Part shown: positions 1-36,119 of the stretch, one piece after another | Layout: every line of letters begins with the position of its first letter | Numbering within the stretch: the first letter of the stretch is position 1 | From: a virus | Reading direction: 5' to 3' (one strand) | Virus record (IMG/VR): IMGVR_UViG_3300017782_000079 | Coordinates: 1-36,119 of that record | DNA length: 36,119 nt | Notes under the pieces: generated by a model | The model's database searches: none | What the model saw: only the letters and a program-made list of their open reading frames with translations | What the model was told of the DNA's origin: nothing | Program-made: the position numbers and the translations under genes

Positions 1-2
1 AA

Positions 3-1259
3 GCAAGTTTGTCGTCTAATACAGTAGGACAGACATATTCTTTTTGGTGGAATACTACAAATACAGGAATTAATAATTGGATATTTGCACTAAAACAAGA
101 TTCTACTTATCGAGCAAGGTTTTATCAAGACTATGCATATCAATTTAGAATCGGTACTCAAGCTGATTCTAATTATGTTTATGCAGGAGCAAGTGGTAAC
201 TCTACAGGAGTATATAACAATGGTGTATGGCATCATATATTAGTATATATAGATAACACTATTGGAAGCTCTAAAGTATATGCAAATGGAGTTGCTTTAT
301 CAATGGGTTCAGGAAATGGTAGCTCTTCTGTAGGAACATCTAACACGCTTGTTATAGGAAATAAAGCGGGTAGTATCTCTCAATTTGCAGTTTGGAGCGG
401 TGATAAAACATCATCTGCATCTGGTATCTATGCTACAGGAGTTAATGGCAATTTAATAAATTCTTATAACACAGACTTAATTAGCTATTGGAAACTTGAT
501 ACTGCAAGTACAGATGCTAACGCAATAAAAGATTTAGTTGGTACTAATCATGGTACTGTAAATGGTAACCCTACACTTAACACAGGCAATACAGGCACAG
601 TTGCGGGTACACCAGACTCAATTACAATTCGTGAGGGATTAACCTCTAACAAAGATGGATTAGGATTTCCGTTAACAAATCCAAGTAGCAATGTGTTAAG
701 GTTAAACGGTGTTAGTGAATATCTCAATTTAGGCAGTCCAACATCATTAACAGATATTTGGCAAACTGGTGCTACAGTTGAAATGTGGTTAAAACCAGAA
801 GGTTCAACAGGAAATATGGGAATTATGCACAAGTCTGGTAATGGTAATCAAGGATGGCAAATTAAATGCGATTCATTTAGTGGCGGTAAGTGGCACATTA
901 GATTAGTTGGTGTTTTTAGTGGTGATAATTATGTGTGGCAAAAAAATGCATATTTAACACCAGATATTTGGTCTTATTGGGCAATTACTTGGACAAGCAT
1001 AGCAGGAGGTTCAGCAACTTGGTACTCAAGCAATGAAGCAGGAGTATTAAGTCAAATTACTTCACCAAATGTAGATAACACATCTACAGGAACATACACA
1101 TCTGACGATGGTTTTGATTTAATTATAGGCTCAAAAGAAAATAATAGTACAAAATGGAATGGTATGATGGATGAAATAATGATTTACAATCGAATTTTAA
1201 CGAGTGATGAAATAAGTAAAAACTTTAAATATTCCAAAGGAAAGCATAAAAATGACTAA
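3..1259 (+). CDS. LamG/concanavalin-like tail fibre or adhesin, 5' partial
   Basis: The reading frame is open to the left edge, so the true start lies outside the window; the TTG at 9 is internal. Two concanavalin A-like (LamG, Laminin_G_3) sandwiches are visible, one at about residues 1-165 and one at about 220-405. Each has the usual landmarks: a GVWHHI or WSYWAIT strand, a Gly/Ser/Thr-rich core, and a closing strand of the ISQFAVW or MDEIMIYNRIL type. The linker is Asn/Thr/Gly-rich. Such domains bind glycans or proteins and are common in phage fibres, so host-surface binding is inferred from family and from the position just before the lysis genes. The stop overlaps the next start by 8 bp. 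Confidence 0.85.
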   Translation, partial: ASLSSNTVGQTYSFWWNTTNTGINNWIFALKQDSTYRARFYQDYAYQFRIGTQADSNYVYAGASGNSTGVYNNGVWHHILVYIDNTIGSSKVYANGVALSMGSGNGSSSVGTSNTLVIGNKAGSISQFAVWSGDKTSSASGIYATGVNGNLINSYNTDLISYWKLDTASTDANAIKDLVGTNHGTVNGNPTLNTGNTGTVAGTPDSITIREGLTSNKDGLGFPLTNPSSNVLRLNGVSEYLNLGSPTSLTDIWQTGATVEMWLKPEGSTGNMGIMHKSGNGNQGWQIKCDSFSGGKWHIRLVGVFSGDNYVWQKNAYLTPDIWSYWAITWTSIAGGSATWYSSNEAGVLSQITSPNVDNTSTGTYTSDDGFDLIIGSKENNSTKWNGMMDEIMIYNRILTSDEISKNFKYSKGKHKND

Positions 1260-1794: not shown

Positions 1795-1906
1795 GGATTT
1801 GAAAGATTACTTAACGATAATAGCTTTTTTAGTTATAGTGCTTGGCGGGTTGGTTTTACTTGGAAGTTGTGATAGTGGATGGTCAGTGGTTGGTTATGAG
1901 GTATGA
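1787..1906 (+). CDS. Small one-helix membrane peptide, possibly lipoprotein-like
   Basis: A 39-residue frame starts at GTG 1787 inside the end of the preceding gene and ends in TGA overlapping the next ATG (ATGA overlap). The product has a short acidic N-terminus, a hydrophobic helix (IIAFLVIVLGGLVLLG) and then S-C-D-S. The LGSC sequence is a weak lipobox, so an Rz1-like spanin lipoprotein is conceivable, but the proline-rich periplasmic part expected of Rz1 is absent. The tight overlaps on both sides support translation. No homologue is recognised. Confidence 0.45.
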   Translation: MNEDLKDYLTIIAFLVIVLGGLVLLGSCDSGWSVVGYEV

Positions 1907-2327: not shown

Positions 2328-2333
2328 AAAAAA

Positions 2334-2888: not shown

Positions 2889-3143
2889 ATGGATTTTATT
2901 AGCGATTGGATGAGTTGGAGTAACTTTTTTTATTTAATAGGTATAATACTTGCGGGTTATGCTACTGCTGTAACTGCAAAAAACAGAAATACATTTGTTC
3001 AAATACAAGAGCTTGTTGATGTGCTAGAAGAAGCAAACAAAGATAAAAAAATAACTGCTGCGGAAAAAAAGAAAATAATGAAAGAAGTTTTAGACATTGC
3101 CAAAGCTGTAATCCAAAGCAAATGGGCAATCTGGTCTAAATAA
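2889..3143 (+). CDS. Putative holin, one-helix membrane protein
   Basis: The 84-residue product has an aromatic N-terminus (MDFISDWMSWSNFFY), a transmembrane helix at about 13-30 ending TAVTA, and a lysine/glutamate-rich amphipathic helix in the C-terminal half. It overlaps the endolysin start by one base (TAATG). Adjacency to the endolysin makes it the best holin candidate in the cassette, but the class cannot be fixed from sequence alone. An AGGAAATAGT purine stretch precedes the start. Confidence 0.75.
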   Translation: MDFISDWMSWSNFFYLIGIILAGYATAVTAKNRNTFVQIQELVDVLEEANKDKKITAAEKKKIMKEVLDIAKAVIQSKWAIWSK

Positions 3144-3541
3144 TGGCAAGATTTGGAAAAAGGTCAAGAGAAAGACTAAGAGGGGTAGACCCTAGACTGG
3201 TTGTTGTTCTAGAACGAGTATGTAAACATTTTGATATAACAGTTATTGAAGGTTTACGTAGTCAAGAAAGGCAAAACGAATTAGTAGAGCAAGGGAAAAG
3301 TAAAACTAAGTTTGGTAAACATGTTCAAGGTAAAGCTGTGGATGTAGCACCTTACCCAATCGATTGGAACGCTAGAGACGATTTTCATTATTTAGGCGGG
3401 TTTGTTTTGGGTGTTGCTGCTAGCATGGGCGTAAAGCTGCGCTGGGGAGGAGACTGGAATGCTTCTAGCACGTTTCAAGGAAAAAGGACAACTAAAGATA
3501 ATAATTTTGATGATTTAGTTCATTTTGAAATTTTAGATTAA
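3143..3541 (+). CDS. Endolysin, peptidase M15 (L-Ala-D-Glu / VanY-like)
   Basis: This 132-residue protein matches compact phage M15 peptidases (T5 endolysin type) that cut peptide stems of peptidoglycan. The zinc site is clear: H60 and D67 in KHVQGKAVDVAP, and H127 in DDLVHFEI, with D124 as the probable catalytic acid. EGLRS at 36-40 is the usual substrate-side strand, and LRWGGDW at 99-105 is typical of the family. There is no signal peptide, so export depends on a holin, consistent with the membrane-protein genes just upstream. Confidence 0.93.
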   Translation: MARFGKRSRERLRGVDPRLVVVLERVCKHFDITVIEGLRSQERQNELVEQGKSKTKFGKHVQGKAVDVAPYPIDWNARDDFHYLGGFVLGVAASMGVKLRWGGDWNASSTFQGKRTTKDNNFDDLVHFEILD

Positions 3542-4694: not shown

Positions 4695-4886
4695 TTGCAA
4701 GATTTTTTAACTGTTTCACAAGTTGCTGATGAATTAAAAGTTTCAAAAGGTACTGTTAGGCAATATATACAGACTGGAAAATTAAAAGCTAGTAAACCAA
4801 ACGGTAAGAATTTTATTATCTTAAAAGCTGAATTATTTAATTTTGTAAATAAAACTGAATACAAACCGCTCCCTACTACTCTTTAA
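4695..4886 (+). CDS. Excisionase-type HTH DNA-binding protein
   Basis: This 63-residue protein is a nearly complete HTH_17/MerR-like winged helix: LTVSQVADELKVSKGTVRQY is the helix-turn-helix, and IQTGKLKASKPNGKNFIILK is the wing. The start is TTG behind AAAGGAG. Such proteins act as excisionases or small regulators. No integrase is visible in the window, so a regulatory role is at least as likely. A conserved-loop hairpin begins immediately at its stop codon. Confidence 0.85.
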   Translation: MQDFLTVSQVADELKVSKGTVRQYIQTGKLKASKPNGKNFIILKAELFNFVNKTEYKPLPTTL

Positions 4887-5322: not shown

Positions 5323-5419
5323 AACTTACAAAATAAAACGAAATTATACATTTATGGACAAAGTTATTCGTGGGGCTTATAAGTTTTTTGAGTCACCATT
5401 TGAGAGGAGCATTAAATGA
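5309..5419 (+). CDS. Small basic peptide, 36 residues
   Basis: An ATG-started frame is placed well behind ACGGAG and overlaps both neighbours (14 bp into the preceding gene, 4 bp ATGA with the following one). The product is strongly basic with an aromatic centre (KIKRNYTFMDKVIRGAYKFF). Coupling on both sides and the good ribosome site make it a likely real gene despite its size. Function unknown. Confidence 0.55.
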   Translation: MKKNKTYKIKRNYTFMDKVIRGAYKFFESPFERSIK

Positions 5420-5934
5420 GTGAAGAATTAATTACTCTTGACGAACTTGAACTCGATGATAATACATATACCGTTAGCGATAATAAAGTAGAAATAAAAG
5501 ATGTTCACGCTGACCAATTATTGTGGAAAATAAAAAAACTTGAAAAAGATATTGAAAATTTAAAGGCGAGACAAGAAGAATCTGTAGAGTTTTACAACAG
5601 GAGAATAGACTCTGTGCTAAATCAAATACGATTTAGAGCAAATTTACTTGAAAGACATATGCAAGTAGAACTTGAGTCTTCCGGTACAAAAACAAACAAA
5701 CTCCCTAATGGAGTACTGAGGCTTACCACTCGTAAAAAAAAGACTTTTGGCGATGAAGATGCATTACTCAAATTTTCTTTTGAGAATAATATACCTACTA
5801 AAGTCGTCGAAAAACCCGATAAAAAAGCTATTTATGAGCATACAATAGTAATGGGAGATGCTCCCGATGTTTGCTCTGAGGAAGAAATAACTAGCTTTTC
5901 ATATCAAACAACCAACAACCTAATGGAGGAGTAA
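5416..5934 (+). CDS. Gam / Gp157-like protein
   Basis: The 172-residue product has a central coiled coil (about 33-95: DQLLWKIKKLEKDIENLKAR...), followed by TKTNKLPNGVLRLTTRKKK. That layout is typical of Mu Gam-like host-nuclease inhibitors and siphovirus Gp157 proteins (helical hairpin, then a TKT-x-K-x-P-x-G strand). Those proteins protect phage DNA ends from RecBCD or accompany recombination genes, which fits the annealing/SSB-like gene 2 bp downstream. The two families cannot be separated by eye. The start follows GAGAGGAGC. Confidence 0.6.
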   Translation: MSEELITLDELELDDNTYTVSDNKVEIKDVHADQLLWKIKKLEKDIENLKARQEESVEFYNRRIDSVLNQIRFRANLLERHMQVELESSGTKTNKLPNGVLRLTTRKKKTFGDEDALLKFSFENNIPTKVVEKPDKKAIYEHTIVMGDAPDVCSEEEITSFSYQTTNNLMEE

Positions 5935-6943: not shown

Positions 6944-7345
6944 ATGCCAAGTAGAAGTAAGCAAAAAGGAAATAGGTTTGAACGTGAGGTTGTTAATATA
7001 GCTAAAGAGCGCCAGATAGGAGCTGAAAGAGCTTATGCTAGCAATGGACTTTCGTTAGGCCATACTGAAGAAGTTGATGCCGTTCTAGATGGGAAAGACA
7101 AAGAATGGAGAGTTCAATGTAAAGTTAGAAAAAATATAGCAAAATGGATAAAGCCAAATACTAAAAATGTTGATGTGCAGGTTGTTAAAGAAGACAGGGG
7201 TACAATATATGCTATACTACCTTTTGAGGATTTTCTAGAACTCATTGAAGACCCGGATAAAACAAATTACAAAGAAGAAGAAAATAGACAGTTAGAATCA
7301 GAAAGGATGCAAGGAATTGGACAACGAATTCAAGAACTCTCTTAG
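6944..7345 (+). CDS. Hjc-like Holliday junction resolvase / PD-(D/E)XK nuclease
   Basis: The 133-residue product opens with KGNRFEREVV and carries an archaeal Hjc-like PD-(D/E)XK core: E13 in the first helix, D45 in EEVDAVL and Q58-C-K60 in WRVQCKV. These are the three catalytic positions of the fold. A Ser/Asn-rich loop (AYASNGLSLGH) sits where Hjc enzymes carry their conserved serine. Role inferred: resolving branched replication intermediates before packaging. AGGAG precedes the ATG. Confidence 0.8.
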   Translation: MPSRSKQKGNRFEREVVNIAKERQIGAERAYASNGLSLGHTEEVDAVLDGKDKEWRVQCKVRKNIAKWIKPNTKNVDVQVVKEDRGTIYAILPFEDFLELIEDPDKTNYKEEENRQLESERMQGIGQRIQELS

Positions 7346-7523
7346 CATAGGTGATACTGTTACTGCTAAAGTATTAGGTACTCATGGAGAAGAAGAATAC
7401 GTAAGTGGAGAAATTGCATCAATAAGCGAGGATTATGTTTTTATAGTAAGCAAATACCCTCGTAAAAAACACTACTCAATAAAAACCCAAAACATCATAG
7501 GAGGAGTTAATGGGCAAAAATAA
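7317..7523 (+). CDS. Small beta-rich hypothetical protein
   Basis: A TTG-started frame overlaps the end of the resolvase gene by 29 bp and the start of the replication gene by 14 bp. The 68-residue product reads like a small beta barrel (IGDTVTAKVLGTHGEEEYVS, GEIASISEDYVFIVSKY) with a basic stretch PRKKHYSIK. It may be a KOW/Tudor-like or DNA-associated accessory, but no family is recognised. Coupling to the replication initiator suggests a replication-related role. Confidence 0.65.
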   Translation: MDNEFKNSLSIGDTVTAKVLGTHGEEEYVSGEIASISEDYVFIVSKYPRKKHYSIKTQNIIGGVNGQK

Positions 7524-8511
7524 ATTAGGTAAAGCGCCGGCATTTCAGTTTTATGCTAGCGATTTTTTATCAGATATAAATGTAACCACAATGACAATGG
7601 CTCAAAGAGGTATGTATATAACCTTGCTAGCATTTGAATGGATTGAAGGGTCATTACCTACCGATATATTAAAACTAAGGATTTTATGTGGTAATCATCC
7701 TGATTTTGATAGCGATTGGCAAGTCGTTAGCAGTTGTTTTACTAATTCAGATGGAAAACTATACAACAACCGCTTAGAATCAGAGCGCAGTAATATGGTA
7801 GCGTATAGAGAAAGAATGAGCGCTAATGGACGAAAAGGGGCGGAGAGCAGATGGCAAGGCCATGGCAAGGCCATAGCTAAGCCATCCAATAAAGAAGTAG
7901 AAGAAGAAGTTGTAGTTAAAAGTAAAAGAACAAATGTAAAAAAACAATTTACAGATGAATTTTTAAATGAATTTTGGACATTATACCCACGTTCTGATAA
8001 TCGTAAAAGAGCGCTTGATAAATATGTACTGATTAGAAAAAGTGGAACCTCAAAAGAGAATATTATAGATGGTCTAAAAAATTATATGAAATATTGGAAA
8101 GCTAAAGGAACAGAGCCTCAATACATCCCTATGGCTAGCACTTGGTTAACTCAAGAGCTTTGGGGCGATGAATTAATGTTTAAAAATACCGGAGTACAGA
8201 ATATTAATGTACCTATAAAGCAAGATTGGATGTGCCTTGAATGTGGACACGAAAAAACTACTGACACTAAAGAACTTAATAAAGAAGAAAAGTTTTGTAG
8301 TGAATGTAAAGATGGTATTTACGAGACAAAAAGAATGGCTTTACTTGAGCGAAGATTAATAGAAGCTGATAGTGCTAGAAAGAAAAATACTGGACAGCAG
8401 GACATTCCTACTGGAAAGCTCAAGCTAGAACGCCAGACGCAGCCCAGAAATCAGGGAAGCAGCGACAATTCTAGCACGTTAGCAGATGTTCTGCAAAGTT
8501 TTGGGGCGTAG
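7510..8511 (+). CDS. DUF1376 replication initiator / DnaT-like protein with internal iterons
   Basis: Residues 8-105 match DUF1376 (AFQFYASDFLSDINVTTMTM, then RGMYITLLAFEWIEGSLPTD), a winged-helix domain of phage replication proteins. Residues about 150-225 form the second conserved region (FLNEFWTLYP, then YIPMASTWLTQELWGDE) seen in DnaT/DnaD-like helicase loaders. Residues about 235-265 hold a zinc ribbon (C-L-E-C ... C-S-E-C). The linker near residues 114-125 is encoded by three 11-bp iterons, the arrangement of lambda O, where the origin lies in the initiator gene. Likely role: origin recognition and loading of host helicase. GGAGGAG precedes the ATG. Confidence 0.8.
   Translation: MGKNKLGKAPAFQFYASDFLSDINVTTMTMAQRGMYITLLAFEWIEGSLPTDILKLRILCGNHPDFDSDWQVVSSCFTNSDGKLYNNRLESERSNMVAYRERMSANGRKGAESRWQGHGKAIAKPSNKEVEEEVVVKSKRTNVKKQFTDEFLNEFWTLYPRSDNRKRALDKYVLIRKSGTSKENIIDGLKNYMKYWKAKGTEPQYIPMASTWLTQELWGDELMFKNTGVQNINVPIKQDWMCLECGHEKTTDTKELNKEEKFCSECKDGIYETKRMALLERRLIEADSARKKNTGQQDIPTGKLKLERQTQPRNQGSSDNSSTLADVLQSFGA
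7851..7883 (+). repeat. Three 11-bp iterons inside the replication gene
   Basis: ATGGCAAGGCC occurs at 7851-7861 and exactly again at 7862-7872, followed in register by ATAGCTAAGCC at 7873-7883 (8 of 11 identical). The same family occurs inverted at 17372-17437. A purine-rich AAGAAGTAGAAG tract follows, as it does beside the other array. Candidate initiator-binding sites and origin element. Confidence 0.75.
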
Positions 8512-9090: not shown

Positions 9091-9280
9091 AGACATTATA
9101 AAATTGCTCGAAGACAGGCTTGAAATTGGTAAACGCGAATATACTGAAGAGTTAGATGTAAATGACGGCAGAGATTGGCATTTAGAGGCCTTAGAAGAGT
9201 TATTAGATGGTTGTATATATCTAGCATCTGCAATATTAAAACTAAAACAAAGGAGAGATAGTGTTAAAAAAACATTATAA
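9083..9280 (+). CDS. MazG-like small helical phage protein
   Basis: The 65-residue product has a pattern common in phages, LLEDRLEIGKREYTEELDVN then RDWHLEALEELLDGCIYLA. The ALEELLD(x)3-YLA helix resembles the metal-binding EE..D helix of MazG-type nucleoside triphosphate pyrophosphohydrolases, but only half of a MazG core is present. It may act as a dimer or be a degenerate relative. The final residues overlap the start of the next gene by 20 bp. Confidence 0.65.
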   Translation: MNKDIIKLLEDRLEIGKREYTEELDVNDGRDWHLEALEELLDGCIYLASAILKLKQRRDSVKKTL

Positions 9281-9620
9281 AGAACAACGTGACCATCTAG
9301 GCGCGCATCTAAAAAATAGCGCTAGTAAAGTCTATCAAATAACCGACGGGATTATCCAAACCTGTAAGCTAGCACGAAATGGTAAGCTGGGAAAAGGAAG
9401 CGCGTTCAAACAAATAGAGAAGCTTGCGCTAGAACTGCGGGGATGGAATGATGTTCCCGCAAATGTTTCGTACAAGTATTCACCTTTGGGTGTTATGGAT
9501 AGTGAATCTGAATGGAAAAAAGAGAAAAAAGAACAAAATAAATTTATATTATCGCAAGAAGACGCGGACACGAAAATATATCCCACACAAGAAGATATTA
9601 AAAATGTTTTAGAAAGTTAG
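9261..9620 (+). CDS. Hypothetical protein, 119 residues
   Basis: The gene starts at GTG behind AAGGAG. The product is helical and basic in its N-terminal half (HYKEQRDHLGAHLKNSASKV, then KLARNGKLGKGSAFKQIEKL) and charged in the C-terminal half. I do not recognise the family. It is the last rightward gene of the replication cluster and faces the terminator shared with the leftward operon. Confidence 0.7.
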   Translation: MLKKHYKEQRDHLGAHLKNSASKVYQITDGIIQTCKLARNGKLGKGSAFKQIEKLALELRGWNDVPANVSYKYSPLGVMDSESEWKKEKKEQNKFILSQEDADTKIYPTQEDIKNVLES

Positions 9621-10345: not shown

Positions 10346-10513
10346 TTATTCTACTTCATTAATCTCATTTATGTACGATTCTACACAAGTATTTTTTTTA
10401 AGCTTTATTTTATCACTATCGTAATATTTTTTTTCTGCTTGTTTTTTATTTTTTGCTTTTACTAAATAAACTCTAGCATAAGTTTCAGCTAATTGTATTT
10501 CATATTCTTTCAT
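10346..10513 (-). CDS. DpnD/PcfM-like small protein
   Basis: The 55-residue product begins YEIQLAETYARVYLVKAKNK then KQAEKKYY, the beta-beta-alpha pattern of the DpnD/PcfM-like family (strand, strand carrying V-x-A, then an EAE-type helix). It is preceded by AGGAGTGCTAGC directly before ATG, a 15-bp block repeated before the next gene upstream. Family members sit in mobile elements without a proven function. Confidence 0.75.
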   Translation of the reverse strand: MKEYEIQLAETYARVYLVKAKNKKQAEKKYYDSDKIKLKKNTCVESYINEINEVE

Positions 10514-10525
10514 GCTAGCACTCCT
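10511..10525 (-). repeat. Duplicated ribosome-site block (copy 1)
   Basis: On the minus strand AGGAGTGCTAGCATG joins the Shine-Dalgarno sequence, a GCTAGC palindrome and the start codon. The stop codon of the upstream gene (TAG, 10515-10517) lies inside the palindrome. An identical 15-bp copy is at 10866-10880. Confidence 0.8.
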
Positions 10526-10868
10526 TTTGTTGATTAGTTAAAATAATATCTAAATCTTTAGCAAGATGCGCTTTATATCCGAATCCTTTTAATAATCTAT
10601 TTAAATTATCCAAGTTCCATCTATCTACCCACTGAACTTCACCGTCTTCATTGTCTGTATTTGCTATTAAAATATTAATTAAATTCATGTCGTATGATAA
10701 ATTTCCCAATCTTTTTCCCCATTGACTTTTAGGGTCTTTCGGTTGGTCTCTTTTCTTTTTTTCTGTTACCACATCTTTATCTATTGCGATTCTAAGAATA
10801 AATGAGCCACTCATGCTACTCATTCCATATGATGTCACATAATCTATCTCAGCATTTATTTTATTCAT
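10515..10868 (-). CDS. Hypothetical protein, 117 residues
   Basis: The start at 10868 is chosen for the AGGAG seven bases upstream; a longer frame to 10907 has no ribosome site and would overlap the neighbouring gene. The protein is mixed alpha/beta (MNKINAEIDYVTSYGMSSMS, FILRIAIDKD), with a basic middle (KKKRDQPKDPKSQWGKRLG) and a C-terminal part ending DLDIILTNQQKEC. I do not recognise a family. Confidence 0.75.
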   Translation of the reverse strand: MNKINAEIDYVTSYGMSSMSGSFILRIAIDKDVVTEKKKRDQPKDPKSQWGKRLGNLSYDMNLINILIANTDNEDGEVQWVDRWNLDNLNRLLKGFGYKAHLAKDLDIILTNQQKEC

Positions 10869-10880
10869 GCTAGCACTCCT
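10866..10880 (-). repeat. Duplicated ribosome-site block (copy 2)
   Basis: Identical over 15 bp to 10511-10525: AGGAGTGCTAGCATG on the minus strand, overlapping the TAG stop of the gene at 10879-11178. Same geometry at both junctions, although the genes are unrelated. Confidence 0.8.
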
Positions 10881-11178
10881 ATTTCTGGTTAATAATACTA
10901 ATTGCATTCTCTATCATTTTATCAGCGTTTTTCATATCCTCCCTACGCTTTTTCAATGCTAAGTTAAAATTTTCGGTAAGCGCTTCCAATATTTTTCCAT
11001 ATTCTTTTCCTTTTGCTTCCTCGCCTAGCGCAGTTGTTGCAATATCTCCGACCATTCTACCAACCAAATCAACCCATTGTTTTTGTTCTTTTTTATTTTT
11101 TATAGTATCGGAAATAAAATTCCACATCATAAGATGAACATATGCTAATGATGTGTAAAATTGTGTTTTGCTTTTCAT
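10879..11178 (-). CDS. Hypothetical helical protein, 99 residues
   Basis: The product is predicted all-helical: SLAYVHLMMWNFISDTIKNK, then a central helix (KQWVDLVGRMVGDIATTALG) and a charged C-terminal helix. No membrane segment is clear. AGGAG precedes the ATG, itself preceded by the CAACCAACA leader motif and conserved-loop hairpin copy 2. Family not recognised. Confidence 0.75.
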   Translation of the reverse strand: MKSKTQFYTSLAYVHLMMWNFISDTIKNKKEQKQWVDLVGRMVGDIATTALGEEAKGKEYGKILEALTENFNLALKKRREDMKNADKMIENAISIINQK

Positions 11179-11204
11179 GTAATCTCCTGTTGGTTGTTAT
11201 TTTA

Positions 11205-11245
11205 ATTAATTATTACTTTCACTAAAGTTTCAAGTAATAATTAAT
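11205..11245 (-). promoter_or_regulatory. Intergenic hairpin with conserved loop (copy 2)
   Basis: A 14-bp perfect stem (11205-11218 with 11232-11245) has a 13-nt loop that reads GAAACTTTAGTGA on the transcribed-sense minus strand. It contains the stop codon of the upstream gene and lies about 25 bases before the ribosome site of the next. A 41-bp direct copy of 11201-11241 is at 12261-12301. A TTGAAA at the stem/loop boundary could alternatively be a -35 box. Confidence 0.75.
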
Positions 11246-12241: not shown

Positions 12242-12261
12242 GTTGCCCCCTGTTGGTTTAT

Positions 12262-12308
12262 TTAATTAATTATTACTTTCACTAAAGTTTCAAGTAATAA
12301 TCAATTAA
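12262..12308 (-). promoter_or_regulatory. Intergenic hairpin with conserved loop (copy 3)
   Basis: The inner 10-bp stem (12269-12278 with 12292-12301), one A-C mismatch and a further 6-bp stem (12262-12267 with 12303-12308) enclose the 13-nt loop GAAACTTTAGTGA (minus strand). Positions 12261-12301 are identical to 11201-11241 over 41 bp. It overlaps the stop codon of the gene at 12301-12780. Confidence 0.75.
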
Positions 12309-12780
12309 TATGTGGTTGGAAAATGCTAGGAACTGCTCTGTCCGTCCATTTAGCGTTGTTTAATTTTGTACCTACGTAATAGTCTTGATAGGCTTTCGTA
12401 GCCTTAGTATTTTTATATTTGTCCGGCATAGCTTGAGCAAATGGAGTCAATTCGTAGGTAGGCATATTAACAAGCCACATGTTATCTATGCACCATTGTA
12501 TGACTGCTTGTGATTTGTGTGTTTTTTTGTATCTGTGGGTATATTCTTGTGCTAGCGCAATTCCATGCGCGGCCAGCCACTCGAAATTAGAATAAGAATT
12601 ACGTGCCCAAATTGTACAAGGGTGATTATAATGCGCTTTTTTGTAAGGCACATCATGTTTGTCTTGGTCGAATGCAGAACATAACATTTGCGCTGATTCT
12701 AGCACCATTTTTACAACATGTTTATCATGTTGCATTTGTGCTGATTTAGTTGGGCAAAGGTCTAATGCGAATATGTTCAT
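12301..12780 (-). CDS. Pyrimidine-dimer DNA glycosylase (T4 endonuclease V-like) family protein
   Basis: The 159-residue protein begins MNIFALDLCPTKSAQMQHDK and continues HVVKMVLESAQMLCSAF, then NHPCTIWARNSYSNFEWLAA and EYTHRYKKTHKS. This matches a phage family related to pyrimidine-dimer DNA glycosylase/AP lyase (PF03013-like), with the conserved DKHVVKM helix and the W-x-R-x-S-x2-N-x3-L block. Chemistry is inferred from family: base excision or another glycosylase action on DNA. Its ATG is one base past the upstream stop. Confidence 0.75.
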   Translation of the reverse strand: MNIFALDLCPTKSAQMQHDKHVVKMVLESAQMLCSAFDQDKHDVPYKKAHYNHPCTIWARNSYSNFEWLAAHGIALAQEYTHRYKKTHKSQAVIQWCIDNMWLVNMPTYELTPFAQAMPDKYKNTKATKAYQDYYVGTKLNNAKWTDRAVPSIFQPHIN

Positions 12781-13205: not shown

Positions 13206-13249
13206 TTAATTATTATTATTATCACTTACGTTTAAATAATAATAATTAA
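13206..13249 (-). promoter_or_regulatory. Intergenic hairpin with conserved loop (copy 4)
   Basis: A 15-bp perfect stem (13206-13220 with 13235-13249) has the 14-nt loop TAAACGTAAGTGAT on the minus strand. The loop core AAAC-(G/T)-T-(A/T)-AGTGA matches copies 2 and 3, while the stem is a different TTA/ATT-rich sequence. It overlaps the stop of the VWA-like gene (TAA at 13246-13248). Confidence 0.75.
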
Positions 13250-14124
13250 ACATGGTTGAACCACTTAGGTGGCTTTGCTATTGTTTGAAGTGCTTTTTCT
13301 AGTCCGTCGATAGTATCGGCATCGGTTTTGCAGAATCGTTGTTCTACTGCATGGATTAGATTTAATTCGCGCTTATATGTATCTGTGGTTTCTACTTGAT
13401 AACCTAGACTCCCATCAAACCCATACACTTTTTCCATGAGTCCGAACATAAAGTCGCGGAATAATCCGGGTAGGCCGGCAGTCATAAGCCTATGTACATC
13501 AAGCGGTTCGTTTGCTAGCTTAAATGGTATAGATATACCAAATCTATTCCAGTTTTTGCTACCACTATATCCGGCAAAATTGTAAGCAATAACCTCGACA
13601 CCGTAGCCAAGTTTTGTAATAACATCACAAATGCATGCTAGCGTAGCTCCAAGTCTTGCAAAATCTTTTTCCTTGTGACCACATGCTATTGCCATGTTCA
13701 TACCAATACGAACATTTGCACGCTTAGACTTGCGAATTGTAGTTTCCCAATATTGGTCGCTACCACCCATTAATCTCGACATACTTAAGTCGTCGCCGTC
13801 GTCTCTGCGAACTCGTTTACGCTTACATGACAAACCCATGCCGGCAAACTTAGATACGTCGAGTCTAGTGTCTATGCTAGAACGAAGTTTTTGGTATGTC
13901 TTCATCATAGCATCCGATGTTCTGCCGACCATCAAAGCGCGTTGAACATTTTCGCGCCCTACAACATGCTTGCCGTATTGCCATGTTTTTGTACGTTTAT
14001 GAGTGTACAAATCATTGTCGTCAATAATGTCTAGCATTGTTTTTACGTTGGGAATTTGCACTACGGCATGTTTACCTTCGTATTGGTCGTCGATAATTTT
14101 TGGTTCTAGAATTTGCATACTCAT
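13246..14124 (-). CDS. VWA-like (DUF7192-like) partner of the AAA+ ATPase
   Basis: The 292-residue protein has a basic loop (CKRKRVRRDDGDD, about 100-112), then strand-helix-strand ANVRIGMNMAIACG (136-149), FARLGATLACICDVI and GYGVEVIAYN (173-182). This is the alternation of a von Willebrand factor A domain, but the D-x-S-x-S metal site is replaced by N-M-A-I-A, as I recall in phage DUF7192 proteins. It starts one base after the AAA+ gene, with its ribosome site inside that gene. The MoxR-VWA pairing suggests an ATPase-driven remodelling complex; the target is unknown. Confidence 0.65.
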   Translation of the reverse strand: MSMQILEPKIIDDQYEGKHAVVQIPNVKTMLDIIDDNDLYTHKRTKTWQYGKHVVGRENVQRALMVGRTSDAMMKTYQKLRSSIDTRLDVSKFAGMGLSCKRKRVRRDDGDDLSMSRLMGGSDQYWETTIRKSKRANVRIGMNMAIACGHKEKDFARLGATLACICDVITKLGYGVEVIAYNFAGYSGSKNWNRFGISIPFKLANEPLDVHRLMTAGLPGLFRDFMFGLMEKVYGFDGSLGYQVETTDTYKRELNLIHAVEQRFCKTDADTIDGLEKALQTIAKPPKWFNHV

Positions 14125-14125: not shown

Positions 14126-15331
14126 TTATTTACTCTCCTTTAATAATCCGTTAACATTAACTTTACTCAGTTCCTCTTTCGTCCACCCTGTAGTTACAAT
14201 GTCGAGAAACTGCTTATTTGATTTGCCTGCTAGCCTCCATGTTTGGCCGTCAAGAAACAACCTCGTGCTAATGGTACGTCTAACATGCTCACTCTTGCAT
14301 TGGTCTCGAAGTTTCCAGAGTACATTTGCCATGTCAGTAAAATCTCCGGCTAATGCACGTTCTACGTTTCTGTCGTAATCGACATGAACTTTGACTGCTT
14401 GCAGTCTGTCTAAGGTCGCTAGGTCTAGTTGACCTCTACCGGCGAACTCGAAGTCGTTGCCGTCACCCCATGTATTACTTGCTACTGCTACATGAAAGTC
14501 GTCGTGTTTCTTGGCTACCGGATTGTCCTTGTCGTTTGGAGTTGCTAGCACACCCTGATTGTCGAAGACACTATTAAACACTAGGCCACAATTAGCATCG
14601 AAGCCGTCAAACTCGTCGAGACATAGGAATGAACCATTCCTAAACGACCTTGCTACTGCGCCGTCAATAAACGTGCCGTCGAATGTCATTCGCCCTGTCA
14701 TATGTGATTCTGTGACTCCGGCGCTACCTTTGAGATATTCGTAGTTATCTTCGTCGGTATTAAAGCCTAGTGCATCAGCACATTGTTCGATGAGAAATGA
14801 TTTGCCGGTTCCACTTGGCCCACATAACCACACTCTCTTGAAATGCTTAAGGCATTCTAGCACAAATGGAAACTGCTTATGCTTTAAGCCATCGGTTTTT
14901 TTAACCTCGACGTCGTTAATCTTGACGTACACCGGGTTCTGTAATTCCTTTAGTTTGTCGTCAATTAACTGATTCATTTTGGTTGTTTCCTCGGCAACAC
15001 CCTCAATAAAAGTATCTCTGATACTCTCGGTTCGTTTGTAAATGTCGTCTCCAAGTTTCTCTGCTACCTTGTCAGCTAGCATGTCTTCTAGGCTACCACT
15101 TGGCGCCGTCTGTGGTTGCGGTTGCGGTGTTGGTGCTTCCGGTCTCCTCGGTGTAGTCTCTTCCGGCGGTGTTGGAACTCTGTTGTCGACTAGAAAGTCT
15201 ATCAGTTCGTACTGCTTAGCTGATTGTACCCAAGAACTAGCCTTGTCAAGTTGTCGACACTTAGTGATAGCTAGTGTTTTAATTCTGCTATGTTTCATAG
15301 CATCTAATTCCATTCTTGTATAGTTTCCCAT
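14126..15331 (-). CDS. MoxR-like AAA+ ATPase
   Basis: The 401-residue protein has a small N-terminal helical domain (residues 1-51), a Pro/Thr/Gln-rich linker (52-78), a predicted coiled region (80-132) and an AAA+ core. Walker A is GPSGTGKS (171-178), Walker B FLCLDEFD (235-242) and sensor 1 ASNTWGDG with N286. The GRGQLDLATLDRL region holds the arginine-finger candidate R309, and RRTISTR is a sensor-2 candidate. It resembles MoxR/CobS-type ATPases, which act with VWA proteins, here the next gene. AAGGAG precedes the ATG. Confidence 0.88.
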   Translation of the reverse strand: MGNYTRMELDAMKHSRIKTLAITKCRQLDKASSWVQSAKQYELIDFLVDNRVPTPPEETTPRRPEAPTPQPQPQTAPSGSLEDMLADKVAEKLGDDIYKRTESIRDTFIEGVAEETTKMNQLIDDKLKELQNPVYVKINDVEVKKTDGLKHKQFPFVLECLKHFKRVWLCGPSGTGKSFLIEQCADALGFNTDEDNYEYLKGSAGVTESHMTGRMTFDGTFIDGAVARSFRNGSFLCLDEFDGFDANCGLVFNSVFDNQGVLATPNDKDNPVAKKHDDFHVAVASNTWGDGNDFEFAGRGQLDLATLDRLQAVKVHVDYDRNVERALAGDFTDMANVLWKLRDQCKSEHVRRTISTRLFLDGQTWRLAGKSNKQFLDIVTTGWTKEELSKVNVNGLLKESK

Positions 15332-19190: not shown

Positions 19191-19395
19191 AACAACAGGT
19201 TATGTAAGTCAACCTAAATCACAGAGTGGCGAAATAAATGTTAATGAATTAGCAATAATGAATATTGACAATGTTTATTATGAAATTGATGGGCATGTTG
19301 CAAAATTTATTCTTACCCTTATTGAAGATGTTGAGTCTTCAAACGAAAGAATGCATTTTTTAGAAACTATAATGGGTACAAATGGAGAAAGTTAA
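19168..19395 (+). CDS. Small protein between TerS and TerL
   Basis: The 75-residue product overlaps TerS by 23 bp and TerL by 14 bp. It has a basic N-terminus (MAREKTIKTTGYVSQPKSQS) and a helical C-terminal half (VAKFILTLIEDVESSNERMH). Such overlap within the terminase pair suggests a coupled accessory protein. Family not recognised. Confidence 0.7.
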   Translation: MAREKTIKTTGYVSQPKSQSGEINVNELAIMNIDNVYYEIDGHVAKFILTLIEDVESSNERMHFLETIMGTNGES

Positions 19396-21049
19396 AAAAC
19401 CGCTTACATCTCTTTCTGAAAAAAAGAAATCAGAAATGTTAAAAGCGATGTATTTAGATATTTTTACATTTGCTGAAATTTTATTTGGCGATAAAGAAAA
19501 CCCTATGCATTTTCATGTGCGCTCTAAATCGCCCGATTTTCACCGCGAAATAGCAAAAACCTTAATAGGTATGGCACCGGGTAGTAAACTAGCTGTAGTG
19601 GCCCCAAGAGACCACGCAAAATCGACGTTTATTAATCTTATCTACCCTTTACATCGCATATTGTTTGGTGAAGAGCGTTTTTTACTGCTTATATCAGAAT
19701 CTGAAATGCAATCTAAATACAACCTAGAAGCGATTGGAAATGAAATAGAGTTTAATCCTAAAGTCCATTATTTTTTTGGAGATAGAAAGGGTGCTGTTTG
19801 GGGTAAGGAAGAAAAAGAAGTTATTGGCGGGTTTGATAAATATGGAAAGCCAAATGTAATGTGTAAATGTTTAATTCGTGGTACTGGTCAAAAAGTTCGT
19901 GGATTAAAATATGGAGCATATAGACCAACACTCACAATAATTGATGATGGTGAAGGTGAAGCTAACAGTACTACCCCTACAGCTAGGGATAAATTTAGAA
20001 GATGGCTAAACGGTGCTGTTATTCCCGGCTCTGGAGATGCAAAATTAGTATTTATAGGCACAATCGTAGACACTTCTGCGTATTTAAATAGAATTGCAGG
20101 CCCATTAGCCTATGATAAAAACGGTAATTATAAAGTCAAGGGTTGGAAGTCTTTATTTTTTCAAGCAATTCCACAAAATATGCCAAATGGTAGGTTTGCT
20201 ACTTCTGGAAATGAGTTTAAAGATAAGAACGGAAAAATAAAAGTACTATGGGAAGATAGGAGACCTTATGATTGGTTGATAGCTGAAAGAGACAGACTTA
20301 AATCAGAGGGCGACATCGCATATTTTTATCAAGAGTATCAAAATATTCCGGTAGATGATAGTTTTAGAATTTTTAAAGAAAAAGATATGCGCTATTGGGA
20401 TGGTAGATATATTTATGAAGAAGGTCAAAGTTATATTTTCAGGACTGATGAAGATAGGCGAATGAAATTACCTGTAAATATATTTTTAGGTGTCGACCCC
20501 GCATCAAGCGAGAATGTTAAAGCAGACTATACTGTAATTATGGTAATAGCAGTAGATAAAGAGTATAATATTTATGTTTTAGATTATTTTAGAGGGCAAG
20601 TAGCTCCAATGGACGGAGCGGATAGATTGTTTGAGCTAGCAGATATGTACCACCCTAAAGATATTAAGATTGAAGAAACGGGACATGTTATGCTAGCAGA
20701 CTATGTTAGAAGGCATTCTAAGCTTACAGGAAGATTTTATAATATAAATACTCGAAAAGCAATTAAAGCAAAATATTATAGAATAAAACAAATGCAACCG
20801 CATTTTGCATCTCATTCGGTTTTTTTAAGAGATGAACATGAAGAGCTAGAGTCAGAATTATTAAATTTTAAAGAACATGGTACATTTAAAAAAGACACGT
20901 TAGACGCTTTAAGGTGGGCAATAGATGATGTATGGGCGCCTGATGTAGAACAAAATGAACAAGGAGATTGGACAGCTCCAGCTCCTATTTTAGAAGTAGA
21001 TTGGGAAACAGGCCAGAACTTTAGTGCTTCTGATTTCTACGAAGCATAA
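19382..21049 (+). CDS. Terminase large subunit
   Basis: The 555-residue protein has the two TerL domains. ATPase: Walker A-like APRDHAKST (74-82), Walker B TIIDDGEGE (185-193) and GTGQKVRGLKYG (167-178). RNase H-like nuclease: first Asp D372 in FLGVDPAS, a middle acid in IKIEETGH, and last Asp D508 in DTLDALRWA. It cuts concatemers and drives DNA into the capsid through the portal. The R-D-H-A-K-S-T Walker A variant is typical of Terminase_6-type proteins. The start follows GGAG. Confidence 0.95.
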   Translation: MEKVKKPLTSLSEKKKSEMLKAMYLDIFTFAEILFGDKENPMHFHVRSKSPDFHREIAKTLIGMAPGSKLAVVAPRDHAKSTFINLIYPLHRILFGEERFLLLISESEMQSKYNLEAIGNEIEFNPKVHYFFGDRKGAVWGKEEKEVIGGFDKYGKPNVMCKCLIRGTGQKVRGLKYGAYRPTLTIIDDGEGEANSTTPTARDKFRRWLNGAVIPGSGDAKLVFIGTIVDTSAYLNRIAGPLAYDKNGNYKVKGWKSLFFQAIPQNMPNGRFATSGNEFKDKNGKIKVLWEDRRPYDWLIAERDRLKSEGDIAYFYQEYQNIPVDDSFRIFKEKDMRYWDGRYIYEEGQSYIFRTDEDRRMKLPVNIFLGVDPASSENVKADYTVIMVIAVDKEYNIYVLDYFRGQVAPMDGADRLFELADMYHPKDIKIEETGHVMLADYVRRHSKLTGRFYNINTRKAIKAKYYRIKQMQPHFASHSVFLRDEHEELESELLNFKEHGTFKKDTLDALRWAIDDVWAPDVEQNEQGDWTAPAPILEVDWETGQNFSASDFYEA

Positions 21050-21466: not shown

Positions 21467-23473
21467 ATGTTAAACTTATCGAAGTTAGATACAAAAGAAA
21501 TTACAGCGGAAGAAGTTCGCTCGGACTATTTGCATTTTGAAAGTAGTTCTAGTGAGTATCGATACCAAATGGCTGAAGACCATGAGTTCTATCTTGGGAG
21601 CCAATTAACCAAGTCACAAAAGAACTACTTGCTCAGCGTGGGTCAACCCCCAGAAGCTAACAATAAAATACGCCCTTCCGTTGAGCAAGTATTGGCAAAC
21701 ATTGCAGCTTCTGCTCCAGAATGGGATGTTCATTCTGTTGGAAAAACAGACAATGATGTTGCCTATGTTTTTGACCAACTTTTAGATAAAATATGGTACG
21801 ACTCTGACGGAGATGTGCATTTTAGACAAGCTTGTAAAGATTTTATTGTAAAAGGAATTGCTTGCATGTATATCTATCCGGATTATAAAGCTGACGGTGG
21901 TTTAGGTACAATAAAAGTAAAAAGAATGCCACCTGAGTCAATTTTTGTTGACCCTAATAGTTCTAATCCAGATTTTTCAGATGCTAGCGCAATAATTTAT
22001 TCTGACATTCACACAAAAGAACATTTAAAAATATTATTTCCTCAATTTGAAAAAGAAATAGAAGAAGCAAAAGACGACGAAGATAGAAATGAAAAATCAT
22101 CTGGGAAATACTCTAGAGACCAAATAGATACAGCCGGAACACAATCTTTAGACCATCAAGGGCGAGTTCGTAAATATTGTTACTTTACAAAAGTAAATAT
22201 ACCTCATGCTTTAATTCTTGATACAAAAACAGGTAAAAATCAGCTTTATAATAAAGAAGAATACAAAGAATTAATAAAAGACAAGCAATATGAAGATTTT
22301 TTAAAGCAAGGAATAATTACTGAGCAGTTAACGTACATTACAAGAGTAAGAGAAGTATTTGTAGTGGGAGATACTGTTTTGTATGATGAAATATTGCCTG
22401 TTTCAGAATACCCTATTGCAGTAGCTTGTAACGAGCATGCGGGAAATCCTTTTCCTAGTGGAGATGTAAGACATTCAAAAACACCTCAAAGAATGTTAAA
22501 TAGAACAGAAGCATTGCTTATTTCACATACTAATGCTACAACAAATTTTAAGCTTGTTTATGAAGATGGCGCTATTGACGCTAGTGAAATTCAAAAATGG
22601 CACATTCCAAATGCTATTATTAGAGCTAATCCCGGTGCGCTTGCTTCTGGAAAAATAAAAGAATTTAGCCCGCCGTCAGTTTCTTCTGCTTTGTATAATG
22701 AAAAAGCAAGGTATGAAGTTGATATAGAAACAGTCTTTGGAGCGTACAAGTTTCTTCAAGGAAACTCTCAAGGTGCGCCGGGGACTGTTGGTGAAGCGCA
22801 AATAATGGATGAGTCTAGCTCAAGAAAACAAAATTGGAAAATATTGCCAATATATGACATGCTTACACGTTCAGCAAAAGTAATTGTAGAATGGCTGCCA
22901 AATATATATGACCAACAGAGAACATTGCGAATTGTTAGTCCAGAAGGCTCTGAAAGTGAAGTACAATTAAATATTCCTGTTATAGACGATAAAACAGGCG
23001 CAGTAAAAAGATTATACGATTTAACAACTGCTCAATTTGATGTAAGAGTAGTTGTGGGTTCTACAAGGTCTAAATCACCAATGGCAGAACTACAAAAAGA
23101 TTTAACACTCCTAAATGCAGGTATTTATGATAAGACGCAAGTAATTATGAATATGAAAGGCGACATAGATAAAGCAAGCCTTATGCAAAGAATGGGAGAA
23201 ATATCAAACTTGCAAGCTCAATTACAGCAAACGCAAGAAGAACTTAAGAAGATGCAAGGTGACTTGCAGACTCGAGAGCGCGAAGTGTTCCATGCTAATA
23301 TGCGCGCAGAAATTAGTGAGGCTACCAAACCTGTTTCAGAGGCGGTAAGCACCATTAAATCTAACGCTAAGCTAGAACAAGCGCGACAAAGAGATAAGAC
23401 TCGCATGGTCAGCGAAGACTTATCTGTCGCAAAGCAAGCGGTTAACTCAGAATCCAAAGCTTCGCTAGCATAG
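21467..23473 (+). CDS. Portal protein, P22-like
   Basis: The 668-residue protein fits the P22-type portal family. It has a long helical start with YQMAEDHEFYLGSQLTKSQK and NNKIRPSVEQVLANIAASAP, a wing with ESIFVDPNSSNPDFSDASAI, and YPIAVACNEHAGNPFPSGDV, where the core strands meet the tunnel region. The C-terminus (about 565-668) is a Gln/Glu-rich coiled coil like the portal barrel. Length is near P22 gp1 (725). It forms the dodecameric DNA channel and binds TerL and the neck proteins. It has a spacer of only 37 bases upstream. Confidence 0.88.
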   Translation: MLNLSKLDTKEITAEEVRSDYLHFESSSSEYRYQMAEDHEFYLGSQLTKSQKNYLLSVGQPPEANNKIRPSVEQVLANIAASAPEWDVHSVGKTDNDVAYVFDQLLDKIWYDSDGDVHFRQACKDFIVKGIACMYIYPDYKADGGLGTIKVKRMPPESIFVDPNSSNPDFSDASAIIYSDIHTKEHLKILFPQFEKEIEEAKDDEDRNEKSSGKYSRDQIDTAGTQSLDHQGRVRKYCYFTKVNIPHALILDTKTGKNQLYNKEEYKELIKDKQYEDFLKQGIITEQLTYITRVREVFVVGDTVLYDEILPVSEYPIAVACNEHAGNPFPSGDVRHSKTPQRMLNRTEALLISHTNATTNFKLVYEDGAIDASEIQKWHIPNAIIRANPGALASGKIKEFSPPSVSSALYNEKARYEVDIETVFGAYKFLQGNSQGAPGTVGEAQIMDESSSRKQNWKILPIYDMLTRSAKVIVEWLPNIYDQQRTLRIVSPEGSESEVQLNIPVIDDKTGAVKRLYDLTTAQFDVRVVVGSTRSKSPMAELQKDLTLLNAGIYDKTQVIMNMKGDIDKASLMQRMGEISNLQAQLQQTQEELKKMQGDLQTREREVFHANMRAEISEATKPVSEAVSTIKSNAKLEQARQRDKTRMVSEDLSVAKQAVNSESKASLA

Positions 23474-32855: not shown

Positions 32856-35800
32856 ATGTCTCAAGTAGAAAAATTATTTAATTATCTTCAAGAAAATGAT
32901 TCTAATCCAACGCAATTTGGTGATTTAGAACAATTTTCAGAAGAAATAAAAAACCCTAATCAAGCAGAATTACTAAGACAGTATTTAAACAATGACCAAT
33001 TTGGTGATTCAACAATGTTTTATAATGAGTTAAATAAAGATTTTGCTCCAGAAATAGAAAGCCCCACACAAGAAAACATTAAAGCTCCATTAGAAGAAAA
33101 CCTTATATCTTTAAGTACAACTGAAGGCCCTAATGATATTTTACATAATGAATTAAATAATCCCGGTTCTAGCTTAGATACATTAGCTAGCATAGCAAGT
33201 CCTAATTATGAATCTAATCAAAAAATCAGTAGCTCTGATTACGGACTATTTCAAATTAATGACAAATATTGGTCAGATACTTCTAATCAGCTTTTTAATA
33301 AAAGCATAGCAGACCAAAGCATTGAAGAGAATATTGAAATGGCTGCTTATATAGCTAAAAACGACCCAAGGGGATGGAATAACTGGGTAGCATACAATAA
33401 ACAAAAACATAAAGAATTTGATGGTATTACAGACGAAGAAATAGTAAATCAATATGGAGTTTCTCCAGAAGCTGTTCAATTAATAAACGAATCGTTTGAT
33501 GACCCGCAAACTGCAAAACAAGTTATGCTAGCAGAGTCTGGTGGTAAACAAGATGCTATTAATGTTAATTATACACCGCAGTCAGAAGGGAATGAAGAAA
33601 TATCTTCAGCTATACAAAATCAAAGTCAAGGCATAATAAGTCAAACACAACAAAGATTTCCACAAATGGAAACAGCACAGCCAAGCTCTACTGATTTTGT
33701 AAGTGATGAAGAACAAGCAATGTATCCTACATTTAAACTAGGAGGAACTGATATTGCAGGAACATTAAAAAAAGCAACAGAATCGTATCTTGCATTAGAA
33801 AGCCCTAATTGGGAAACTATGCCTTTTAAAGATTTAAAACCTATTGCTCAGTTCGGGGTAAATGTTTTAAGTCATATAGCAGAAGTACCCGGATTAGCTA
33901 TTGATATACCTACTCAGTTAGCAGCAAATCCAGAAGAAACTCTTTATGGGTTAATATCTTTTTTTCCAGAAGAATTTAATAAACTAATAATGGCATCTGG
34001 TATATATGATGTTACTAACCCTATTGCCGGTCTTGTTGGTTTAGATATTTCTAAAGAAGAACTTGCAAGTATGAGAAAAAAAGCTCAAAAGCATATATAT
34101 GATACCGGCGGAGTATATACTTTTATGTCAGCTCATGGATTAACTAATCTTGGTGTTAAAACAAGAAAAATAGCTGAAAAAAATGCAGAATTTAGAGATG
34201 TAGTCAAAGATGCTAATGGTGAAACTCCTAGTAAACCTCTTTCAAAAGAAGGCCAAAAAGCATCAGATGCTTTAAAAAAGAATCCAGAGTTAAATGAAAA
34301 AGCAAAGCAAGCGGTAGGGGAACAGTTAGAGCTTGATTTAATTGAACCAAAAAAAGTAGAACAAATCTTAGAAAAAGCAGAAAAACAAACTAGCACAGAA
34401 GTTAATTTAGATAGAGATGTTCCAGATGTTGTGTTAGATAAAAAAAATAGCGTTGCAAAAAAATTAAAAAAAGTAGAAAAAAAAGTTAAAAAAATAACTG
34501 AAAAAGTAAAAAAAGAAAAAGCTAAAAAAACTTTACAAGAATCAATAAAAAAACAATTCCAAAAAAAATCACAAAAAAAACAAGGAGTATTGCAAGAACA
34601 AAAAATTACTAAATCTTCTGACTTTAAAATAGGAGATGGTTTTGAAGCTATAAAAGGAGAGCCTACGCGAAGATATAAAAGTTTAGATGGGATAAAAGAA
34701 TATGTAGCTTCTAAACTACCAGAATATGTAGGTGAAAATGTAATTGCTACATACGCAAAAACAACTAAGGGTGATTATTTAGTTAGAATACTAAAAGTTC
34801 AAAAAGACGCGCCTAAAGAAATTATTGGAGCAAAATATGGTCAGAAAAAAATAGGGCCAGAACCCGCACCAGAACGAGTGACTTCAATGAGAGACCCTAG
34901 AACAGGAAAAAGAAGAATACAAAATAGAGAAGTATTGTTAGAAAAATACGAAGCTGAAATAGGAGAACTTGGAAGAAATTTAGAAAAAACGATTAATGAA
35001 GTTTCTAAACTAGAAAAACAAACATTAGAAACTGGCGTACAGTCTCCTAGAGTTGAATTGCTTAAAAATTCTATAGACTCAATTAATAATACTATTGCTA
35101 AGTCTCAAAATAATATTAGACAAATAATGACATCTAAGCAGTTAGTGGCTAGAATTACAAGCAATATTGGTAAAAAAACTACAAGCGGTCAAATAGGCGG
35201 AAATGCTAAAAAGTCTAAAAAACAAAAACAAAGAGATGCAGAAATATCAGCAGATATACGGCAATTATGGGAGAATGGTAAGACAGGTCTTAAAATAACA
35301 AAAAAGAACTTAATTAATTATTTAAGAGAAATTGGCGCTTCAAAAGATTTTATTAAATACGCTAATAAAAATTACAAAAGGCTTGCAGATGAAGCATTGT
35401 TTGAAAATGCTAAAAAACTAGCAAATGAAATAGACTCTGAATACTCTTCTAGAAAAGACCCGGTTAAAGGAACTAGAACTAAGTATAGAAAGCCAGATGA
35501 ATATATTGGTAATATGCGAGTTGATATTTTAGGCGGTGACAAACCTAGTAATTATAATATAGCTCAAGTAGATATTTTAAATGAAATTGTAAAAAAAATA
35601 GGCGGAGAAAAAGTATCTAAGGCTCAAGGCACAACAACATTAAAAGCGATTGAAAGAGATGCAAATAGTCAAAAAATAATGGGTGAAATGATACATGAGG
35701 TTTTTCATAAAAGTGAAATAACTTTAAATAATTTACCTGCAAAAACAGCAAGTTTAGTCAACATGCTTTCTACGCTATTAACTGATTTTGCAAAAACAAA

Positions 35801-36119
35801 TAATACTGATTATAGGCCGTTAATAGAAAAAGCTGCGCTAGCATATCAAGAAATTGCAAGTCAGTTTGGTAGAACTGGTAGAGTAATTCGAGATTTAAAA
35901 GCAAAAGAAATAACTGATTGGAAAGTTTTTGAAGATATGTTTGCCGGAGATGTTAGTCTTGTTGAAATATTAAAAGACATAACTTCAAATAAAGAATTAA
36001 CAAGAAGTAGGTTGTTTAAGCTTGCAGAATGGGGTAGAAACGCTAAGCTTGCTACAGGTTCTTCTATTGTAAGAAGTTCTGCAGGTAACTCATTTAGCTC
36101 TGTAGATGCTTTTGGAAGA
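32856..36119 (+). CDS. Giant virion protein with lysozyme-like domain, 3' partial
   Basis: The frame is open from ATG 32856 to the right edge (1088 codons), so the C-terminus is missing. Residues about 108-185 resemble a lytic transglycosylase or lysozyme: E119 in NYESNQ is the probable catalytic acid, followed by SSSDYGLFQINDKYW (126-139) and GWNNWVAYN (173-181). A hydrophobic stretch lies at about 330-390 and a Lys-rich coiled region at about 525-585. A possible zinc-protease motif HEVFH is at 947-951. This fits an ejected gp16-like internal protein that locally opens the cell wall. Confidence 0.85.
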   Translation, partial: MSQVEKLFNYLQENDSNPTQFGDLEQFSEEIKNPNQAELLRQYLNNDQFGDSTMFYNELNKDFAPEIESPTQENIKAPLEENLISLSTTEGPNDILHNELNNPGSSLDTLASIASPNYESNQKISSSDYGLFQINDKYWSDTSNQLFNKSIADQSIEENIEMAAYIAKNDPRGWNNWVAYNKQKHKEFDGITDEEIVNQYGVSPEAVQLINESFDDPQTAKQVMLAESGGKQDAINVNYTPQSEGNEEISSAIQNQSQGIISQTQQRFPQMETAQPSSTDFVSDEEQAMYPTFKLGGTDIAGTLKKATESYLALESPNWETMPFKDLKPIAQFGVNVLSHIAEVPGLAIDIPTQLAANPEETLYGLISFFPEEFNKLIMASGIYDVTNPIAGLVGLDISKEELASMRKKAQKHIYDTGGVYTFMSAHGLTNLGVKTRKIAEKNAEFRDVVKDANGETPSKPLSKEGQKASDALKKNPELNEKAKQAVGEQLELDLIEPKKVEQILEKAEKQTSTEVNLDRDVPDVVLDKKNSVAKKLKKVEKKVKKITEKVKKEKAKKTLQESIKKQFQKKSQKKQGVLQEQKITKSSDFKIGDGFEAIKGEPTRRYKSLDGIKEYVASKLPEYVGENVIATYAKTTKGDYLVRILKVQKDAPKEIIGAKYGQKKIGPEPAPERVTSMRDPRTGKRRIQNREVLLEKYEAEIGELGRNLEKTINEVSKLEKQTLETGVQSPRVELLKNSIDSINNTIAKSQNNIRQIMTSKQLVARITSNIGKKTTSGQIGGNAKKSKKQKQRDAEISADIRQLWENGKTGLKITKKNLINYLREIGASKDFIKYANKNYKRLADEALFENAKKLANEIDSEYSSRKDPVKGTRTKYRKPDEYIGNMRVDILGGDKPSNYNIAQVDILNEIVKKIGGEKVSKAQGTTTLKAIERDANSQKIMGEMIHEVFHKSEITLNNLPAKTASLVNMLSTLLTDFAKTNNTDYRPLIEKAALAYQEIASQFGRTGRVIRDLKAKEITDWKVFEDMFAGDVSLVEILKDITSNKELTRSRLFKLAEWGRNAKLATGSSIVRSSAGNSFSSVDAFGR

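Follow-up and report, generated by a model that had tools for sequence, protein, structure and literature searches.

The 36,119-base linear virus record IMGVR_UViG_3300017782_000079 from IMG/VR (positions 1–36,119), referred to here as the window, is DNA of a tailed phage from a marine phage group. It encodes a terminase (19382–21049), a portal protein (21467–23473), and an endolysin (3143–3541), together with a plus-strand Mu Gam-like DNA-end protection protein (5416–5934), a RusA-like resolvase (6944–7345), a primosomal protein (7510–8511), and a pyrimidine-dimer glycosylase (12301–12780). The minus strand carries a DUF7192 protein (13246–14124), the model of which resembles VWA domains of the CobT/NorD-like type, and its partner, a CobS/MoxR-like AAA+ ATPase (14126–15331). 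A predicted DNA-binding protein of 63 residues from the HTH_17 (MerR/excisionase-like) family (Pfam HTH_17, E 4.3e-11) is encoded on the plus strand at positions 4695–4886 and has a TTG start. The proteins examined included no noticeable integrase or repressor cassette. A search of annotated phages identified remote relatives only, none of them close to the window phage; relatives are numerous in IMG/VR. The clade analyzed here comprises 11 genomes: the window, G003–G010, G016, and G017.

The hexamer GCTAGC has 33 exact matches in the window, the number given in the original prediction. The sites extend from position 2719 to 35842, and their first bases are 2719, 3419, 4399, 7037, 7555, 7626, 8134, 9368, 10514, 10869, 11534, 11924, 12551, 13514, 13637, 14229, 14544, 15075, 16744, 20635, 20692, 21340, 21983, 23464, 23846, 24885, 25323, 27569, 31325, 32199, 33186, 33527, and 35837. 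Two of the coordinates quoted earlier were slightly displaced (8144 instead of 8134, and 33528 instead of 33527). The expected number of sites is 3.6, 6.4, 7.7, and 12.1 for Markov models of order 0, 1, 2, and 3, respectively, and the third-order model thus fails to predict the observed count (Poisson P = 5.5e-7). The order-4 model expects 28.9, chiefly as a result of the sites themselves raising the counts of GCTAG and CTAGC. The word CTAGCAC and its complement GTGCTAG, previously estimated at about 25, have 26 exact matches between positions 3021 and 34396 (20 on the plus strand and 6 on the minus strand), which partly overlap the GCTAGC sites. The tetramer CTAG is not rare in the window (165 occurrences compared to 117 expected). 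The extended site TGCTAGCA is present 12 times between positions 3418 and 33533, compared to 0.9 expected, with first bases 3418, 7036, 7625, 10513, 10868, 11533, 11923, 14543, 16743, 20691, 31324, and 33526.

In every one of the 11 clade genomes, GCTAGC ranks first in over-representation among palindromic hexamers. Each genome contains 24 to 47 copies (413 in the clade compared to 85 expected), and the density of the word in the clade is approximately 1 per kb. The strong enrichment extends to all close relatives and is absent only in more distant lineages; it is a property of the phage clade and not of a single contig. Searches of the literature yielded nothing relevant on GCTAGC as an iterated or phage word. 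When IMG/VR was scanned for other viruses with three close GCTAGC sites, 74 of the matches listed were usable, and these were background-like except for one 5.4-kb contig with 4 further sites.

The flanks of the clade sites define the extended consensus RTGCTAGCAY, with T and almost never G at position −1 and a purine at position −2, which can be read as two overlapping RTGCTA half-sites. The outer base is the position at which departures from the word are mostly tolerated. In the four genomes that contain GCCGGC, where CCGG is tolerated, this variant is enriched as well (22 compared to 3.2 expected). In the sister lineage G011, RTGCTA occurs 131 times compared to 53 expected, with the palindrome at expectation, and G266 contains 65 half-sites compared to 28 expected without palindrome enrichment. 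In G012, which avoids CTAG, TGCTAA (71 compared to 26) and RTGCTA (69 compared to 36) are enriched, and the palindrome is not. Ten more distant records have no clear half-site excess (z below 2).

Within the genes of the 11 clade genomes, 386 GCTAGC sites are present, of which synonymous codon shuffling leaves 70 ± 7. As had been claimed, the sites occur in genes of both orientations and in both codon phases: 192 are in the GCT-AGC (Ala-Ser) phase, compared to 50 expected (3.8-fold), and 194 are in the nnG-CTA-GCn phase, compared to 19 (10-fold). CTA before GCn is favored 4.5-fold after G and 1.4-fold otherwise, and since the preference is far higher after G, it is the whole hexamer that counts. 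The outcome of the shuffling and the need for the whole hexamer led us to reject a codon preference or codon-pair effect, which the original prediction had also considered insufficient. The intergenic density of 0.60 sites per kb is lower than the genic density of 0.89–1.66 per kb, and the spacing of the sites is as random as that of independent placement. Regular spacing or operator-like placement was rejected because of this random spacing and the lack of an intergenic excess. The enrichment depends on neither codon use, gene direction, nor intergenic position.

In alignments of orthologues from close pairs of genomes, CTA is retained in 73 of 79 cases inside the sites and in 177 of 273 cases elsewhere (P = 4.5e-7). 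AGC is kept better after GCT than in other contexts (P = 0.01), and the retention of GCT within sites has the same direction without reaching significance. A mutation bias that only created sites would not reduce their loss, and selection is therefore the likelier reading of the retention, although biased repair could also cut the loss. We read GCTAGC as a DNA-level signal that is actively maintained at a density near one copy per kb.

The claim that sites occur in ribosome-site regions holds for two of them, 10514 and 10869, located in translation-start leaders. The first separates the ATG of ORF 10346–10513 from a Shine-Dalgarno-like AGGAG, in the leader AGGAGTGCTAGCATG (10508–10525, minus strand), and an identical leader is located at approximately 10866–10880 on the same strand; both were read directly from the sequence. 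The leader, within 10505–10530 and 10860–10885, is common to two adjacent minus-strand genes, and the real start of ORF 10515–10907 may therefore be 10868. In addition, TTAATTAATTATTACTTTCACTAAAGTTTCAAGTAATAA is repeated between genes of the minus-strand region, at 11200–11235 and 12258–12300, and is possibly a terminator or promoter element.

The HTH_17 gene is present in all ten palindrome-enriched genomes in which the early region is covered, and in about 50 further contigs of the phage family (L188–L238), which also have a GCTAGC excess. It was not found in G011–G015; G011 lacks it yet contains its neighbors, namely the 3544 and 4944 homologues, Gam, and a 5937 homologue. A small G011 protein that by eye resembles AbrB/SpoVT-type DNA-binding proteins is encoded adjacent to the Gam gene (L183, 765–977, minus strand), close to where G011 lacks the HTH_17 gene that the window's clade carries. 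None of the GCTAGC sites falls within the leader of the HTH_17 gene. The association of this gene with the palindrome is a lead that a small number of evolutionary events supports, with the host and co-inherited genes such as 9261–9620 as confounders. Neither the HTH_17 gene nor the 119-residue gene 9261–9620 has a match in G011 or G012, both of which are half-site-enriched, and each was rejected as the sole reader of the half-site. The DUF7192/CobS pair co-occurs with half-site enrichment in every record checked, a pattern that requires just two changes on the portal and terminase trees. The DUF7192 model resembles CobT/NorD-like VWA domains in a weak match (to that of NorD), which does not point to a DNA reader. 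Tailed viruses widely carry cobST pairs (PMC8651126), and with only two changes needed on the trees, the pair was rejected as the reader. The HTH_17 and DUF7192/CobS associations are leads and not evidence of mechanism.

Judging from these sequence patterns, the most likely use of the word is as a putative protein-binding site distributed over the whole genome, to which we assign a probability of about 0.4. GCTAGC would be the visible core of a family-specific signal, RTGCTAGCAY, repeated about once per kb genome-wide, and selection would maintain the sites as targets of a sequence-specific DNA-handling protein. The binder may act along the whole molecule, organizing, protecting, or recombining the phage DNA, and not at individual promoters. 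A symmetric dimer would occupy the palindrome in the window's clade, and the best candidate reader of this palindromic form is the 63-residue HTH_17 protein. The symmetric flank preference, together with the enrichment of GCCGGC, fits a protein reading a 10-bp palindrome with some freedom in the core. Since the half-site lineages lack the HTH_17 gene, the ancestral reader would be another protein, encoded by the phage or the host. A more specific version, which we consider doubtful, is that RTGCTA constitutes a phage-specific, genome-wide recognition code, turned into a palindrome in the lineage with HTH_17, by which the virus labels its DNA for packing, protection, or recombination by a phage protein. 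Given that synonymous positions within sites have been preserved, standard DNA-affinity methods should be able to identify the reader.

The portal protein of the window family was found in cellular genomes in only two Marinimicrobia (SAR406) MAGs, with sequence identities of 63% and 52%. This suggests SAR406-like hosts for the phage family, although the contigs may be mis-binned, and those two belong to other clades. The Marinimicrobia MAG UBA7303 includes two different contigs with the family portal, L123 (DKQR01000160.1) and L124 (DKQR01000028.1), two related phages having thus been binned with one genome. In 245 SAR406 genomes, TGCTAGCA reaches at most roughly 30 copies per Mb, compared to about 330 per Mb in the phage, and RTGCTAR at most roughly 650 per Mb, compared to about 1,900 per Mb (70 in genes alone). 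Neither the hexamer nor the half-site is enriched in SAR406 DNA relative to expectation beyond small fluctuations. In this comparison with candidate hosts, 0 of the 245 SAR406 genomes reach the phage density; a host-wide word in SAR406 was rejected, with the clade's own host not established.

Ranked next after protein binding along the phage genome is a Chi-like use by the host, which we regard as unlikely. RTGCTA(R) would be read by a RecBCD/AddAB-type host nuclease, and by accumulating the word the phages would withstand end processing and fuel recombination; read in either direction, the palindrome would be active. Such a use agrees with the non-palindromic nature of the shared half-site, a genome-wide frequency of about 1 per kb, and the recombination proteins encoded by the phages. 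The GTGCTAG word also has a weak strand preference, independent of gene direction (129:72, P = 1e-4, a statistic on related genomes), but the half-site preference is slight in G011, G012, and G266. Furthermore, the window's clade encodes a Gam-like protein, which should reduce the need for Chi, and Chi is enriched in host genomes, whereas no SAR406 genome shows such an enrichment, the true host not being established.

Less probable again is a HIP-type origin, in which GCTAGC is the target of a host methyltransferase and the palindrome is generated and maintained by mismatch repair linked to methylation, as was proposed for HIP1 (PMC4390886). The originally noted likeness to highly iterated palindromes stands insofar as GCTAGC is a GC-ended palindrome present about once per kb beyond composition and codon use, with gains plus reduced losses of sites and deviations tolerated mainly at the outer base. 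It does not extend to a HIP in the known sense. Methyltransferases of the families PF00145, PF01555, and PF02086 had no match in the ten clade phages, G011, and G012, a motif search of the phages provided no credible match, and a phage-encoded methyltransferase was rejected. The phage density of GCTAGC is common to no SAR406 genome (0 of 245 enriched), and sister lineages have an excess of the asymmetric half-site but not of the palindrome. Because a cognate methyltransferase is the rule for HIP1 (PMC4390886), the lack of these enzymes in the phages is evidence against a HIP1-like element, and a HIP of the cyanobacterial type is unlikely.

A transcription-related function, in which a phage repressor would bind the sites as stoperators or an operator array, is quite improbable. 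In a stoperator array, the sites lie mainly outside genes and follow the direction of transcription. The many copies in one phage genome, the presence of a phage HTH protein, and the two sites in translation-start leaders are compatible with such an array, but the intergenic density is below the genic one, the palindrome is directionless and occurs on both gene orientations, and the proteins examined revealed no integrase or repressor cassette.

Separate from GCTAGC, GATC is almost completely lost, with one copy in the window (at 1379) compared to about 80 expected, and 2 compared to 994 in the 11 clade genomes, a loss of the restriction-avoidance kind (compare PMC6286503). AGATCT, CAATTG, TTCGAA, GAATTC, and CCAGG are avoided too, as expected under several host restriction systems; the palindromes ACTAGT, TCTAGA, and CCTAGG are likewise avoided in the phages, and GACC is in excess. 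The sister lineages G013, G263, and G265 (L120, L110, L108, and relatives), the portals of which are about 62% identical, are a mirror image of the window's clade, with almost no CTAG (1 compared to about 100 expected in G013) and GATC kept. That GCTAGC is a by-product left over when GATC, ACTAGT, TCTAGA, CCTAGG, and CAATTG are forbidden would fit these depletions and the GACC excess as GATC replacement, but it is very improbable and largely refuted, because the alternatives to GCT-AGC and to CTA in context are mostly depressed instead of a few being forbidden, GATC is avoided to the same extent in G012 and G014, where GCTAGC is not enriched, and the half-site is left unexplained.

Iterated words are familiar from cellular genomes, where they include HIP1, Chi, and uptake sequences, and their purpose is often disputed. 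Chi sites, such as that of Pseudomonas (PMC5959072), are read by RecBCD/AddAB and enriched in the host genome with a strand skew. Like them, the RTGCTA half-site is short, asymmetric, and over-represented genome-wide; unlike Chi, the word is palindromic in the window's clade, has a weak strand preference, is not enriched in the sampled SAR406 genomes, and occurs in a phage that encodes a Gam-like protein. HIP1 (GCGATCGC) and the alternate cyanobacterial HIPs resemble GCTAGC as GC-ended palindromes with a density of about 1 per kb, and HIP1, too, is genic as well as extragenic beyond codon effects (Elhai 2015, PMC4390886). In contrast to HIP1, GCTAGC was found in a phage clade, the phages yielded no methyltransferase, the enrichment is lacking in the one host group with a link to the phage family, and the palindrome evolves from or into an asymmetric half-site. 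The stoperators of cluster A mycobacteriophages (PMC9283540, PMC6550527), which are binding sites for a phage DNA-binding protein, are similarly present in many copies across the phage genome, but are asymmetric and tied to transcription, whereas GCTAGC is palindromic and located mostly inside genes of both orientations. Within one phage family, the word takes a different form in different lineages (the half-site, the half-site followed by A, or the full palindrome) against a background of gains and losses of early genes, and these changes provide natural experiments on the purpose of iterated words.
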